Source: Oceanobacillus kimchii X50
GTDB lineage: Bacteria > Bacillota > Bacilli > Bacillales > Amphibacillaceae
NCBI RefSeq assembly: GCF_000340475.1
Contig: NZ_CM001792.1
Coordinates: 1,015,425 to 1,079,424, forward strand
DNA: 64,000 bases
Direction: 5' to 3'
Shown piece after piece: positions 57,492-63,810 of the stretch. The translations under genes were made by a program, and so were the position numbers. A model generated the notes under the pieces. It was not told the DNA's origin, ran no database searches, and worked only from the letters and a program-made list of their open reading frames with translations. Position 1 is the stretch's first letter. Each line of letters opens with the position of its first letter.

Positions 57492-59213
57492 ATGCTACAA
57501 CAACTACAGCGACAACATCAGGTACAGATCCTTTGGATGGTTATTTGTTCGACTGGGCTAGGAATAGCTATTATTTGGCAAAGTTATCTAATCGTATCCA
57601 TTATAGAACAGATATTTTTACAAGGGAAAACAGTAAGTGCAATTGTAAATTTCGTCTTCTTATTATTAGCAATACTATTATTACGAATGCTATTTTCCTT
57701 TATAAATAAGCGTAACGGTACAAAAATGTCTACAAGTGTTAAGCAAAAATTAAGAGAAGATGTATTAAATCATTTCACTAATCAATCCGTGTCCAATGCT
57801 GCTAAAGGACAATCAGGAAATAAAACAAGCGTTTTTATGGATACTGTAGATGAGATTGATGCATATTACAGTCAATATTTACCACAAATGATACAGTCAT
57901 TTGTGGTTCCATTGCTAATTCTTTTAGTTATTTTTTGGACCCATTGGACAACAGGTGTAATTATACTTGTTACTGCTCCATTTATCCCAATATTTATGAT
58001 GATTATCGGGTTTAAGACAAAAGATAAATCTGAAGAACAACTTTCACAAATGGCAGCTTTTTCAGGAACTTTTTTAGATATATTACAAGGACTACCAACG
58101 ATTCGGTTGTTTGGTAAATCTAAACAGCAGCGTGAAAAGATCTCAAATAGCAGTGTTCGATTTCGGGATGCCACAATGGAAGTATTAAGAGTAGCTTTTA
58201 CAAATTCTTTAGCTCTTGAATTTATTTCCATGCTAAGTATTGGTCTCATTGCTTTAGAAGTAGCGATTCGAATGATTATTTTTCAAGATATTTCGTTTTT
58301 TACTGGATTTTTAATGCTATTGTTAGCCCCAGAATTTTTCAATCAATTAAAAGCGTTAGGTACTGCATTTCATTCTGGAAGATCCAGTATGGGAGCAGGT
58401 AACAAACTAGAAGCAATTTTTGATGAAACAAATAATGAAGTAAAATGGGGAGCAGATGTGCTATCTTCTATTAAACCACCAAGATTAGAATTAAGAGATA
58501 TGAACTTTACGTATGCTGACAGTAGTTTTCAATTACAGTCAATTAATTTGATCATTAACCCAAAAGAGCAAGTAGCAATCATAGGTTCTACTGGGGCTGG
58601 AAAATCAACCATACTTCATATTATTGCTGGTTTATTGCCAATAACAGAAGGAAATTATTACATTGATAAATATAAGCAAGCAGACGTAGAGGAGCATTCG
58701 TGGTTTAAACAATTAATCTATATATCACAGAATCCTTATTTATTTTCAGGGACAATTGCTGAGAACATTGCTTTAGGTAGTACGAAAGTACATGACCATA
58801 ATGAAATAAAACAAGCAGCGATGGAAGCAGGAATTTGGGAATGGATTGAGCAGCTTCCGTCTGGATTAGATACCAATATTGGTGAGGCTGGTAGAGGATT
58901 ATCAGGGGGTGAAAAACAACGTGTAGTTTTAGCACGTACTTTTCTAAAAAGACCGAATATAATTCTATTTGATGAACCGACGACGGGGTTAGATGTGCAC
59001 ACAGAAGAAGTTTTACAACAATCAATGAATAAGTTACGAGAATATGCAACTGTAATAACTGTCGCACACCGTATTCAAACTATACGTTCAGCAGATAAAA
59101 TAGTATTGATGGAACAGGGTTCTATTCGCGCGATTGGAACAGATCGAGAGTTACTTCAAGAGGACGAATTATACCAGTCTATGATGAAATTGCAACAAGG
59201 AGGAGAGGTTTAA
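57492..59213 (+). CDS. cydD: Cytochrome bd assembly ABC transporter, CydD subunit
   Basis: A 573-residue half-transporter with an N-terminal membrane domain (six segments to about residue 310). Its ATPase domain has GSTGAGKST (about 364-372), LSGGEKQRVVLAR, IILFDEPTTGLD and the switch AHRIQT. Its partner is encoded immediately downstream with a one-base overlap. CydDC is needed for assembly of cytochrome bd; it has been linked to thiol export and, more recently, heme transport. An AAGGAG site precedes the ATG. Confidence 0.92.
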   Translation: MLQQLQRQHQVQILWMVICSTGLGIAIIWQSYLIVSIIEQIFLQGKTVSAIVNFVFLLLAILLLRMLFSFINKRNGTKMSTSVKQKLREDVLNHFTNQSVSNAAKGQSGNKTSVFMDTVDEIDAYYSQYLPQMIQSFVVPLLILLVIFWTHWTTGVIILVTAPFIPIFMMIIGFKTKDKSEEQLSQMAAFSGTFLDILQGLPTIRLFGKSKQQREKISNSSVRFRDATMEVLRVAFTNSLALEFISMLSIGLIALEVAIRMIIFQDISFFTGFLMLLLAPEFFNQLKALGTAFHSGRSSMGAGNKLEAIFDETNNEVKWGADVLSSIKPPRLELRDMNFTYADSSFQLQSINLIINPKEQVAIIGSTGAGKSTILHIIAGLLPITEGNYYIDKYKQADVEEHSWFKQLIYISQNPYLFSGTIAENIALGSTKVHDHNEIKQAAMEAGIWEWIEQLPSGLDTNIGEAGRGLSGGEKQRVVLARTFLKRPNIILFDEPTTGLDVHTEEVLQQSMNKLREYATVITVAHRIQTIRSADKIVLMEQGSIRAIGTDRELLQEDELYQSMMKLQQGGEV

Positions 59214-60934
59214 TGCAAGAATTAAAACTCATCATGAAAATGACAATGAAAGAAAAGAAAGACGTCCTCCTATCTATCTTGTTCGGTTTTTTAGCTGGAG
59301 TTACGGCTGTTTCATTATTTGCATCAAGTGGCTATTTAATATCTAAAGCTGCGCTTACCCCACCTATATATACATTGATGATAATCGTTGCGATGGTAAA
59401 AATGTTAGGGATATCTTCGGCACTCAGTCGTTATGGAGAAAGGTATTTTTCTCATCGTGGAACATTTTCGATGCTTCGCAATTTGCGAGTATACGTATAT
59501 GAAAAAATTGAACCAATTTCGACTACGATATTACAAAAATATAGAAGTGGTGATATTTTAGCGCGCATTGTAGGCGATGTAGAATCTCTGCAGCATTTTT
59601 TCTTAAGAGTTTTTTATCCACCAATTGTCTTAATGACCGTTTTTATTGCGACGATTACATTTACTATGGTATTTTCCATACCTATTGCGATGGTAATTTT
59701 GATTGGGATGATATTCGTTGTTATTGTTGTCCCTAGCTTATTTTATCTCTATCAAAGAAAGATAGCTAATAACATTCGTTCGTATCGCGGGCAGCTTTCT
59801 TCGGAGGTCACAGAGTATTTATATGGTTTTACAGATTTGAAAATATACGGACAAGCAGAGTTAAAAAAAAATAACATTCTAAAAAAAGTTACTTTATATG
59901 AACAAGCAACTAAACAAGCGAATAATCAACAAGCTTTTCGTGAGTCTTTATTAACTTTTGTTTCATTTATCGTATCGGTGACTGTATTAGGGTTAGCTGG
60001 TTATTTTGTAGCAAATGGTAATTTAGAAGGAATATTATTAGCAATGTTATTTATGATTTCATTGACAGTCTTTGAAGATACATCAAATATGGCATTGTTT
60101 CCTGCCTATTTAGAGGAAACGAAACAATCTGCTCGTCGATTAGAGGAAGTGTGGAATGTTAATGAAGATAAAAATGAAGTGAAAAAGCCATTTGTATTGG
60201 AAGCCAACTTAGCGCCAACTATTACATTGGAGAACGTGACAAAGAAATATTCAAGTACTCCTCGTCCGATTGCGCAAAATATTTCTCTTCATATCGAATC
60301 AGGATCTAAAATAGCTATCGTAGGTGCGAGTGGATCTGGTAAGTCGACTCTCTTACAGCTTATCCTGGGGATGGTTCCCTCAACAGATGGTCTAATAAAG
60401 TGGAACGAGAAATCAATTGATTATTTAGAAAAGGAAACTTTATGGAATCATGCGAACGTTTCATTACAATCCAATCATTTTTTCTATGGGACAATTCGCG
60501 ACAATTTACATTTAGCCAATTCTGAAGCAACAGATGACGAACTTTGTGAGGCTTTGGATAATGTAAAGTTACATCATATTCGTTTGGATGACTTATTACT
60601 GGAACAAGGTTCCAATCTTTCAGGAGGAGAAAAACAACGTCTAGCGATAGCCCGACTATTTATTCGAAAGGCCGCCGTATGGGCGTTAGATGAACCAACT
60701 TCGTCCTTAGATGTAGTAACTGAAAAACATATTTGGGATAAGATTGACCAACATTCAGAGCGAAGTACAGTAATTGTAGTAACACATCGTTTAACGAGAT
60801 TACAAAAAATGGATGAAATAATTGTTATGGACCATGGGAAAGTTGTTGAACAAGGAACTTACCAAAACTTAATGCAGTATAACGGATATTTCAAACGTAT
60901 GAAAGATTTGGAAAATGCAAAACTAAATCTATAG
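59213..60934 (+). CDS. cydC: Cytochrome bd assembly ABC transporter, CydC subunit
   Basis: A 573-residue half-transporter of the same layout as CydD, sharing 1 base with it. Membrane segments lie in residues 15-300, with Walker A GASGSGKST, LSGGEKQRLAIARL, VWALDEPTSSLD and VVTHRLTRLQ following. It forms a heterodimer with CydD. Unlike the cydABCD operon of Bacillus subtilis, these two genes are convergent with cydAB here. Confidence 0.92.
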   Translation: MQELKLIMKMTMKEKKDVLLSILFGFLAGVTAVSLFASSGYLISKAALTPPIYTLMIIVAMVKMLGISSALSRYGERYFSHRGTFSMLRNLRVYVYEKIEPISTTILQKYRSGDILARIVGDVESLQHFFLRVFYPPIVLMTVFIATITFTMVFSIPIAMVILIGMIFVVIVVPSLFYLYQRKIANNIRSYRGQLSSEVTEYLYGFTDLKIYGQAELKKNNILKKVTLYEQATKQANNQQAFRESLLTFVSFIVSVTVLGLAGYFVANGNLEGILLAMLFMISLTVFEDTSNMALFPAYLEETKQSARRLEEVWNVNEDKNEVKKPFVLEANLAPTITLENVTKKYSSTPRPIAQNISLHIESGSKIAIVGASGSGKSTLLQLILGMVPSTDGLIKWNEKSIDYLEKETLWNHANVSLQSNHFFYGTIRDNLHLANSEATDDELCEALDNVKLHHIRLDDLLLEQGSNLSGGEKQRLAIARLFIRKAAVWALDEPTSSLDVVTEKHIWDKIDQHSERSTVIVVTHRLTRLQKMDEIIVMDHGKVVEQGTYQNLMQYNGYFKRMKDLENAKLNL

Positions 60935-60975
60935 GGGTGTCGTTCCTTGAAATAAATTTAATAGACAATAAAGAA

Positions 60976-61013
60976 CCGAACCGCATCGGATTTTAATATT
61001 CGATGCGGTTCGG
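60976..61013. terminator. Strong hairpin after cydC
   Basis: CCGAACCGCATCG (60976-60988) pairs perfectly with CGATGCGGTTCGG (61001-61013). There is no T run, so it may be a terminator helped by the following sequence or the left edge of the tandem repeat. Confidence 0.65.
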
Positions 61014-61366
61014 TCAGTCCAGTCTCTACGTTTCTGTACGGCGCCCATCACTTTTCTTTATGATCCAGTTCTGTGCGCCAAAAACTAGGCGACTTCCCAC
61101 CATGCTCTACGATAAGTCATCATCGGTTCATACCTCACCGTGATTCCTATATCTCAGTCATGTCAGTCCAGTCTCTACGTTTCTGTACGGCGCCCATCAC
61201 TTTTCTCTATGATCCAGTTCTGTGCGCCAAAAACTAGGCGACTTCCCACCATGCTCTACGATAAGTCATCATCGGTTTATACCTCACCGTGATTCCTATA
61301 TCTCAGTCATGTCAGTCCAGTCTCTACGTTTCTGTACGGCGCCCATCACTTTTCTCTTTATGATCC
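61013..61366. repeat. 149-bp tandem repeat, about 2.4 copies, between cydC and cydS
   Basis: GTCAGTCCAGTCTCTACG recurs at 61013, 61162 and 61311, giving an exact 149-base period. The copies are nearly identical, with only a few substitutions (for example CTTTATGATCC against CTCTATGATCC). The third copy is truncated and ends near 61366, where its TTATGATCCA forms the stop codon and last codons of cydS on the minus strand. Units contain the short stem CGCC/GGCG and a GGCGCC palindrome, with no credible gene. Most of the 423-base gap is filled by it. Confidence 0.9.
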
Positions 61367-61453
61367 ATCTTTTAGTGCTACATAAAATGAAATTCCCATT
61401 GCAGCAAACAAAATAAGGAAGGGTGCGATAAAAATTAGAAAATCATTAATCAT
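61358..61453 (-). CDS. cydS: CydS small subunit of cytochrome bd oxidase
   Basis: A 31-residue frame from ATG 61453 to TAA 61358, starting 6 bases after the cydB stop. It encodes MINDFLIFIAPFLILF, then AAMGISFYVALKDGS. The pattern FLI-x2-AP, a membrane helix and a final V-x-LKD closely match CydS of Geobacillus cytochrome bd (remembered as FLIMYAP...FWVGLKD). The ribosome binding site is GGAAAGAAG within the cydB end. It should sit beside CydA and stabilise the heme region. Annotation pipelines will usually miss it. Confidence 0.8.
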   Translation of the reverse strand: MINDFLIFIAPFLILFAAMGISFYVALKDGS

Positions 61454-61459
61454 ATTTAA

Positions 61460-62473
61460 TCACTTCTTTCCTTTTTTATAGTTTTCATCAAACAAGAATA
61501 GCTTTAACAGCAAATACAGCGATGGTATTAATAATGCCATACCTAGTATGAAGGCAATAATTAAAGATATCGCCATTGCTTGATTGGTAAAACCTTCGGA
61601 TATAGTAATATAAGGGTATAAAAGATATGGGTAATGAGAAATACCATATCCGAAAAAGGCAAAAGCAAATTGACCAACTAATAACCAGAATGCTTTAATG
61701 TAGTTCTTACGTTTCCATATTAACCATACGGTACCAATCCATAATAGAAAAGATATTCCGAACATCCACCATAGATCAATAATATTGTTAAAGTGTTCTT
61801 CATTATGGAAACGCAGTTCTATAATAATCCCCGAAGCTGCAAGGATAAGTGGAACGGACCAAACTAGTGCATATTTCCGCATTAAGTTTGTTGCTCCTTC
61901 ATCTCCGGTCTCATTTGCATACCAGGTTAAGAATACAGAAGAAATATAGAGCACTGCGATAATGCTCAATACTACAATTGACCATGTTAGTGGGCTTGTA
62001 AATAAATCAAGATATTCAAGTTGTGGCTCCCCATTACTAATGGTGATAAATCCGCCTTCCGATATTGTCAATACAATAGACAGAGAAGCTGGAAGTAATA
62101 CTCCAGATGCTCCATACATAAATGCATAACCTTTGTGTCCTTTTTTTCCATATGATTCAAAAGCATAATAAGACCCACGGATTGCCAGTAAGATTAAGGC
62201 CAAACTTCCAGGAACAAGGAGAATGGTGCCAAAGTAAAATGCTGTTTCTGGAAAGAATCCAACGATTCCTACGAAGAAAAATACAAAAAATACATTTGTG
62301 ACTTCCCATACTGGCGAAAGATAACGCTGAATTACCTTAGACACGATATGTTGTTTTCCAGTTAGAATGCTGTATGCATTAAAGAAACCTGCACCGTAAT
62401 CAATTGAACCAACGATGACATATCCAAATAGGAATAACCAAAGCACAGAAATACCGATAATTTCTAATATCAT
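61460..62473 (-). CDS. cydB: Cytochrome bd oxidase subunit II
   Basis: A 337-residue membrane protein with about nine segments. The N-terminal VIVGSIDYGAGFFNAY segment is typical for CydB, and the second-half repeat continues in the same topology. It pairs with CydA in the quinol oxidase. Its start overlaps the cydA stop by 4 bases (ATGA), so the two are translationally coupled. The small cydS gene follows. Confidence 0.93.
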   Translation of the reverse strand: MILEIIGISVLWLFLFGYVIVGSIDYGAGFFNAYSILTGKQHIVSKVIQRYLSPVWEVTNVFFVFFFVGIVGFFPETAFYFGTILLVPGSLALILLAIRGSYYAFESYGKKGHKGYAFMYGASGVLLPASLSIVLTISEGGFITISNGEPQLEYLDLFTSPLTWSIVVLSIIAVLYISSVFLTWYANETGDEGATNLMRKYALVWSVPLILAASGIIIELRFHNEEHFNNIIDLWWMFGISFLLWIGTVWLIWKRKNYIKAFWLLVGQFAFAFFGYGISHYPYLLYPYITISEGFTNQAMAISLIIAFILGMALLIPSLYLLLKLFLFDENYKKGKK

Positions 62474-63810
62474 GATTGGTCACCACCTTGAAAATTCTCG
62501 ATGTCTTTATCTATCGGATTTCTTTGGAACATTTTTCTTAAAACAACTACAGTTCCTACTCCTAAGATAAGATAAAGTAGTACAAATAAGAAGAACATAA
62601 TTCCAACATAATCACTGGTTGTTGCTGCTTCGTCAATGGTCATAATTCCTCGTAAAATCCAGGGCTGTCTACCAACTTCAGCCATCCACCAGCCAGCTTC
62701 AATAGCTAAGAACGATAATGGACCTCCGAGAACAATGAGCCTACGATACCATTTTGATTCGACAAAGTTCCAGCTTCTTCGAATACCAAGCCAATAAATA
62801 AATGATAAACCAAGCATAAATACTCCGATGGTCACCATCGTGTCAAAAAAATAATGAATGACAAGTGGAGGTTGCTCATCTTCAGGGAATTCATTTAGAC
62901 CAATAACTTCTGCTGTTGGCCAGCTGTGTGCTAATATACTTAGTGCATAAGGGATTTCCAATGCGTATTGCGGTTCATTGTTGTCATCGAGAATCCCCCA
63001 CATAACTAAAGGCGCTTCAGAAGAAGTCTCAAAATGCCATTCCGCAGCAGCTAGTTTTTCCGGCTGGTATTCTGCTAAGTATTTACCAGAGAGGTCTCCA
63101 ATTAACGCTGTTGCTAGGGCAAAGACAAAACCTATTTTCATTAGCATGTTAAGTGATTTCTTATGATATTCACGATTTGAACCTTGTAATAGACGAAAGG
63201 CTGCAATCGCAGCAAGAACAAAAGCAATCGTCATATAACCAGTAGATAAAACATGCGCAACTTTTGTAGGCATGGAAACTGTGAACATGGCAGCAAGTGG
63301 ATTAGCATTAACAAGCTCGCCATTAGCAATATCAAATCCGCCTGGAGAATTCATAAACGAGTTAACTACCGTAATAAAGTAAGCAGACATACCGCCACCT
63401 ACGGCAACAGGTATTAGTAATAAGAGATGTTTTTTTTGATTATCAAAGCGATCCCAAGTATATAGGTAAATACCAAGAAAAATAGCTTCAAAAAAGAATG
63501 CAAATACTTCCATAAATAGAGGAAGTGCGATAATATTACCAGCTAGCTCCATGAAACTTGGCCAGAGCAGTGACAGCTGTAACCCAATAGCCGTACCTGT
63601 AACTACTCCGACAGCTACTGTTACAATGAATCCTTTGGCCCAACGTCTTGCCATTAGTAAGTAATGCATGTCATTTTTCTTAATTCCTATCCATTGGGCA
63701 ATCATAATCATTAATGGAACGCCGACGCCAATTGTTGCATAAATAATATGAAAAGAGAGGGTGAGTAAAGTCAGCATTCGGCTGGCATATACCGGATCAT
63801 CGAATATCAT
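62470..63810 (-). CDS. cydA: Cytochrome bd oxidase subunit I
   Basis: A 446-residue membrane protein with about nine segments and a short Q-loop, as usual in Firmicutes. Visible features are H21 in LTLSFH (the position of a heme b ligand), the GRQPWILRG segment near residue 360 that marks quinol oxidases, and EVFAFFFEAIFLGIYLYTW. It reduces oxygen to water with quinol electrons without pumping protons. AAGGAGGTCC precedes the ATG. Confidence 0.95.
   Translation of the reverse strand: MIFDDPVYASRMLTLLTLSFHIIYATIGVGVPLMIMIAQWIGIKKNDMHYLLMARRWAKGFIVTVAVGVVTGTAIGLQLSLLWPSFMELAGNIIALPLFMEVFAFFFEAIFLGIYLYTWDRFDNQKKHLLLLIPVAVGGGMSAYFITVVNSFMNSPGGFDIANGELVNANPLAAMFTVSMPTKVAHVLSTGYMTIAFVLAAIAAFRLLQGSNREYHKKSLNMLMKIGFVFALATALIGDLSGKYLAEYQPEKLAAAEWHFETSSEAPLVMWGILDDNNEPQYALEIPYALSILAHSWPTAEVIGLNEFPEDEQPPLVIHYFFDTMVTIGVFMLGLSFIYWLGIRRSWNFVESKWYRRLIVLGGPLSFLAIEAGWWMAEVGRQPWILRGIMTIDEAATTSDYVGIMFFLFVLLYLILGVGTVVVLRKMFQRNPIDKDIENFQGGDQS

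Follow-up and report, generated by a model that had tools for sequence, protein, structure and literature searches.

Converging on a short intergenic region of the Oceanobacillus kimchii X50 genome are the two halves of the cyd locus. On the plus strand of the window (the whole 64,000-nucleotide stretch of DNA analysed here) are cydD and cydC (57492–60934), of which cydC, the convergent neighbour (59213–60934), matches NCBIfam TIGR02868 with 403.7 bits, above the cut-off. On the minus strand are cydA and cydB (61460–63810), their identity confirmed, as is that of cydD and cydC, and downstream of them is cydS (61358–61453, minus strand), composed of 31 codons and a stop (61358–61360) and matching Pfam CydS (E = 3.1e-13). 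At the end of cydABS is a terminator hairpin (60974–61015, minus strand; fold of −26.8 kcal/mol, z-score of −6.9), followed on the minus strand by TTCTTTATT. On the cydDC side the same hairpin is followed by CAGTCCAG, with no T-run, so that cydDC transcripts could run into the tandem array described next, making antisense read-through possible.

Between cydS and the terminator is a tandem array (61013–61367; 2.4 copies of a 149-bp period, 98% matches), with the cydS stop at its edge; TRF detects three such arrays in the 64-kb window. The units at 61013–61161 and 61162–61310 differ at 2 of 149 positions (1.3%), and over its first 45 bp the partial third copy is identical to unit 1; the description given in the earlier note, of two full copies and a partial third, near-identical and placed between convergent cydC and cydABS, is borne out by these comparisons and by the gene orientations. 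A 24-mer taken from the unit occurs three times in the window (up to 3 mismatches; chance expectation 0.00), every time inside the array.

The element proper is oriented along the minus strand, and the partial third copy is the one farthest from cydS. Adjoining cydS is copy 1, a full hairpin (61212–61353, minus strand; profile positions 4–147, 123.0 bits; model R1 match at G000:C1:1076630-1076781, G000 being the O. kimchii genome itself). Next is copy 2, also a full hairpin (61063–61204, minus strand; profile positions 4–147, 125.4 bits; model R1 match at G000:C1:1076481-1076632), and touching the terminator is copy 3, a 5′ fragment only (61010–61055, minus strand; profile positions 4–49, 22.9 bits). 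The cydS end together with the next bases (TGGATCATAAAGAG; 61354–61367, minus strand) is repeated at every unit junction, and the linkers between copies 1 and 2 (catagag, 61205–61211) and copies 2 and 3 (cataaag, 61056–61062), both on the minus strand, resemble this cydS tail. The array end does overlap the last codons and stop of cydS, as had been claimed, but the stop is cydS’s own and not the array’s, since cydS of the nearest relative (G008), which lacks a full unit, also ends in KDGS-stop. Tandem repeats can be misassembled, and the array could in principle be an artefact of that kind; with two base differences between the units, linkers that differ too, a genome assembled as one contig and similar tandems in other genomes, this is very unlikely.

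The array unit is a ~145-nt non-coding hairpin element that is dispersed and has nothing special to cyd. BLAST of the unit yields ten matches in its own genome (one contig of 3,830,681 bases), of which seven lie outside the array and two of these seven belong to one copy; across the genus, 25 of 28 genomes match. Model R1 matches 27 of the 28 genus genomes, with 0–70 matches each among the matches listed, at least 14 of those listed being in the O. kimchii genome and at least 49 in G008. A second set of 28 genomes, reached through named loci and overlapping the genus set by at least four genomes, contains 24 that match, some weakly. Match counts are 94 in Lederbergia citrisecunda, 78 in Bacillus sp. 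FJAT-49711 and 8 in Virgibacillus sp. LDC-1, and R1 has no match in Alkalihalobacillus pseudalcaliphilus, Bacillaceae bacterium JMAK1, Aeribacillus composti or Lysinibacillus odysseyi. Under stricter filters, 35 of 398 Bacilli genomes match, 12 of them with more than 90 bits and across six families; weaker matches of ~125 nt among the Bacilli genomes may be remote copies or different repeats. A profile search of the loci gave 59 hits, many of them one place counted through overlapping loci. Four variants in the O. kimchii genome (L004, L005, L007 and L009) appear by eye to hold extra hairpin modules within the hairpin. A plasmid or phage origin was considered and rejected, since one typical element matched none of the 72,556 plasmid or 50,697 phage records.

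This dispersal bears on the proposal in the earlier note that the unit had captured, or been seeded by, the 3′ end of cydS, with the repeat growing out of the gene. The unit junctions do carry a cydS tail (TGGATCATARAG, like the cydS end), which makes up a linker of ~8–10 nt per unit, and to that extent the proposal stands. The remaining unit, however, is common to copies at many other loci, beside unrelated genes, and a generic repeat at many unrelated loci, the finding named beforehand as refuting the note’s reading, is what the hairpin element presents in 27 of 28 genus genomes. An origin of the array from cydS is therefore extremely improbable, and it was rejected.

Folding and covariation of the unit across related genomes, proposed earlier as a check, give one long imperfect hairpin with compensatory changes. 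The alignment comprises 24 full-length copies, two of them from the window, with partial, redundant and insert-bearing copies excluded; on the cydABS-sense strand it forms 38 pairs, 17 of which show changes on both sides. Paired cells amount to 95.4%; shuffles give 85.9%, and the slid control, in which the structure is favoured by having been derived from the same alignment, no more than 44.1%. Double-change cells number 96, against 34.4 in shuffles that leave the relatedness of the copies in place, and neither the pairs with a double change (17 versus 14.4; 65 of 500 shuffles as high) nor the further pair types (41 versus 38.6; 107 of 500 as high) go beyond these shuffles. With RNA folding parameters, the 24-copy alignment folds with 38 pairs and −31.2 kcal/mol, and its reverse complement with 28 pairs and −19.6 kcal/mol. 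G–T cells exceed A–C cells by 107 to 17 (51 to 11 in the 11 less similar copies), a count biased towards the strand that was folded. As far as the aligned copies indicate, the hairpin carries compensatory changes, and its better fold is that of the cydABS-sense strand.

Insertion was assessed by comparing 17 G008 stretches that hold copies with 17 O. kimchii stretches in rough synteny. Both flanks are in place at eight of the 17, seven of which were read closely, and the other nine have no usable flank pair. Clean empty sites with a 3-bp target duplication number two only, five more of the sites read being not clean. At L240 the G008 copy lies within an apparent coding stretch that is uninterrupted at the empty O. 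kimchii site, with ATG duplicated; at L246 it lies directly behind a terminator T-run, is missing from O. kimchii, and TAG is duplicated. The element thus resembles a MITE in being short, non-coding and present in many dispersed copies, and in duplicating its target (3 bp) at sites empty in a relative, the latter from a small sample of two. At L244, L245 and L253 the copy lies behind a terminator-like hairpin and T-run, in surroundings that differ between the genomes, and at L252 the comparison is not clean. L243 is the mirror image of the cyd locus, with a full copy in G008 and seemingly only the element 5′ end kept in O. kimchii. One intergenic place holds the element in both genomes in opposite orientations (L248 in G008; L264, 17268–17590, in O. 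kimchii), which suggests a repeatedly used site. Longer direct repeats, of ~20, 14 and 9 bp by eye, flank the copies at L165, L099 and L217, whereas the duplication at each of the two clean empty sites is 3 bp long.

Behind the hairpin of many copies is a ~55-nt tail, often abutting an intrinsic terminator, which makes the two ends of the element unequal. A strict terminator-like hairpin is found within 140 nt on the 3′ side of 26 of 103 copies and on the 5′ side of 2 of 103 (0.6% in mononucleotide shuffles of the 3′ flank), and 22 of the 26 sit 52–65 nt beyond the profile match. Located 14–21 nt behind the hairpin in tails such as those of L104, L116, L162, L211, L244 and L273 is the DnaA-box-like TTATCCACA. 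It is exact in 19 of 105 tails and present with at most one mismatch in 29 of 105, counts that are inflated by related copies. The 5′ flanks contain it in 0 of 105 cases; the two counts for positions further downstream are 2 and 4 of 105, and shuffled tails give 0.04% and 1%. The cyd copies have no such tail and are for that reason not complete elements.

Gene neighbourhoods were read from ORFs of at least 80 codons, a crude rule under which 11 ORFs span a copy and cydS is too short to be seen. Where an upstream gene reads into the element, the element starts −1 to 9 nt past the stop in 17 of 44 cases (4.5 expected); for genes on the 3′ side that read towards it, the stop lies within 9 nt in 0 of 69 cases and at 90–125 nt in 22 of 69 (11.4 expected). 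For 101 copies a neighbour could be assigned on each side: convergent genes enclose 25 of them, divergent genes 13, and co-directional genes the rest, with 44 copies in antisense orientation and 19 in sense. Owing to this excess of antisense over sense copies, a 3′-UTR role is not general, and sense 3′-UTR placement was rejected as a general rule.

Tandem arrangements recur in the family. The 138 distinct copies include 20 adjacent same-strand pairs, grouped into 14 places with the cyd array among them; eight of these places, cyd among them, end in a 5′ fragment, and four of the eight have a tail between copies. L165 has a 5′ fragment ahead of a full copy, and L111 has an inner duplication. 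The R1 matches include further tandem runs, such as one in Virgibacillus sp. LDC-1 with four copies spaced at 147 bp. In the arrays of L186, L191, L107 and L235, linker and upstream flank have no more than ATC in common.

The history of the cyd array is constrained by G008, in which the cydS end (TGGATCGTGA) is followed by a ~34-nt element 5′ fragment (profile positions 4–37, E = 0.00098) and then the terminator; in O. kimchii two full units and a 5′ fragment precede the terminator. Divergence between the two genomes is 9.4% over cydA–cydB–cydS and 12.6% on the cydC side. With units 1.3% apart and genomes 9–13% apart in the cyd genes, the array appears to have expanded or been homogenised recently in the O. 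kimchii lineage. Of 110 regions downstream of cydB (30 drawn from the 28 genus genomes, 80 from named loci, with some genomes in both groups), none except those of O. kimchii and G008 contains a convincing element piece; five weak reverse-strand matches occur in L065, L079 and L083 (E = 0.1–0.16), and the 595-nt stretch of L142 has no element match.

Each unit junction reads ..CTGGATCATARAG..AAAAGTG; the usual element 3′ end is CTGGACGTGG, and TGGATCATAAAGAG is the O. kimchii cydS tail. The simplest reading of this junction would be a tandem duplication over a shared TGGA after the split from G008, and the array as a whole very probably arose when one copy of a MITE-like, non-coding hairpin element, dispersed elsewhere, was amplified locally in tandem. 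Before O. kimchii and G008 separated, a sense-oriented copy would have inserted downstream of the cydS stop and ahead of the cyd terminator. Duplication in the O. kimchii lineage would have fused the 3′ terminus of the element (..CTGGA) with the end of cydS (..TGGATCATAA) at the TGGA common to both, each unit thereby taking the cydS tail along, and the terminator-proximal copy would have been trimmed to a 5′ remnant. Provided that the O. kimchii copies were homogenised, the difference in copy number is equally compatible with contraction in G008 and with expansion in O. kimchii.

The earlier note was right to place the array units in the 3′ UTR of the would-be cydABS transcript. By prediction, this message would carry ~340 nt of strongly folding RNA before the terminator hairpin, instead of ~35–40 nt. 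Taken from the cydS end to the far side of the terminator, the 407-nt stretch has a much stronger fold than its shuffles (z-score of −7.0), and inside the units are two weak terminator-like hairpins of 5 pairs, one per unit (0.4 in shuffles). Unlikely, given the same hairpin at unrelated genes and the lack of a convincing element piece downstream of cydB at the remaining genus and named loci examined (G008 having its fragment), is a selected cydABS 3′-UTR device in which unit number sets message stability or damps cydDC transcription. The strong fold of the 407-nt stretch and its location on the cydABS-sense strand are consistent with such a device, as is, for collision, the absent T-run on the cydDC side; bcr3-bearing Bacillus cereus transcripts are described as longer-lived in PMC3446304, with a caution from its authors on small numbers. 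If the array is a local amplification of a dispersed element, it most likely either has a neutral effect on cydABS or mildly protects the 3′ end of the mRNA; little about the array is out of the ordinary, and the locus is explainable without dedicated cyd regulation. A bolder picture, which we consider improbable, is of an undescribed Bacilli element family, its tail bearing a DnaA-box-like site, that homes to intrinsic terminators and is amplified head to tail within 3′ UTRs, making the number of units at cyd and similar places a rapidly changing dial of mRNA 3′-end stability.

The cyd array shows a dispersed hairpin element amplified beside a gene, with the gene’s last codon and stop taken into the repeat unit, and the wider family has a covarying hairpin, a terminator-side tail with a DnaA-box-like site, and recurrent tandem copies. 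Naming the family would stop annotators from mistaking single copies for gene-specific regulatory RNAs. No description of it was found in the literature searched, including the available portions of PMC3446304, PMC6542083, PMC2864571, PMC2267715 and PMC3049150, and five short element sequences sought in paper texts led only to one unrelated zebrafish paper.

As described in PMC3446304 and PMC6542083, the bcr1–bcr18 repeats of the Bacillus cereus group are short (100–400 bp) and intergenic, bcr1–3 are described as MITE-like, and 84 of 165 and 62 of 155 copies in two strains lie within mRNAs. The cyd element is likewise short, intergenic and MITE-like. Mobility of bcr repeats is tied to a TTTAT motif (PMC6542083); unlike bcr1, with its TTTAT association, the element duplicates ATG and TAG, at two sites only. 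One typical element has no match in the 72,556 plasmid records, among which bcr1-bearing B. cereus plasmids are presumably included. The BOX repeats of Streptococcus pneumoniae, as described in PMC3049150, are dispersed, RNA-structured and thought to be mobile, with boxB as the tandem part; there the tandem part is an inner module, whereas at cyd the whole hairpin element is repeated, and the likeness drawn here is one of description.

Rfam gives no significant match in 60900–61500, the sole match up to E = 1 being U4 (E = 0.14) outside the array, and nothing in the Rfam scans made matches the core of the family. Bacillaceae-1 RNA (RF01690) is also a dispersed hairpin module, found in 26 of 28 genus genomes with up to 59 matches per genome, but is 67 nt long, compared with ~145 nt for the element. 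It was rejected as the identity of the element, being absent from the cyd array (no match in 60900–61500 up to E = 1, and none in L001), and only 3 of 30 fetched copies overlap the element or lie within 120 nt of it. Bacillaceae-1 does occur inside some long element variants (L101, 1599–1665; L109, 1435–1501), and some of the fetched copies lie within other repeats or beside rRNA-like sequence.
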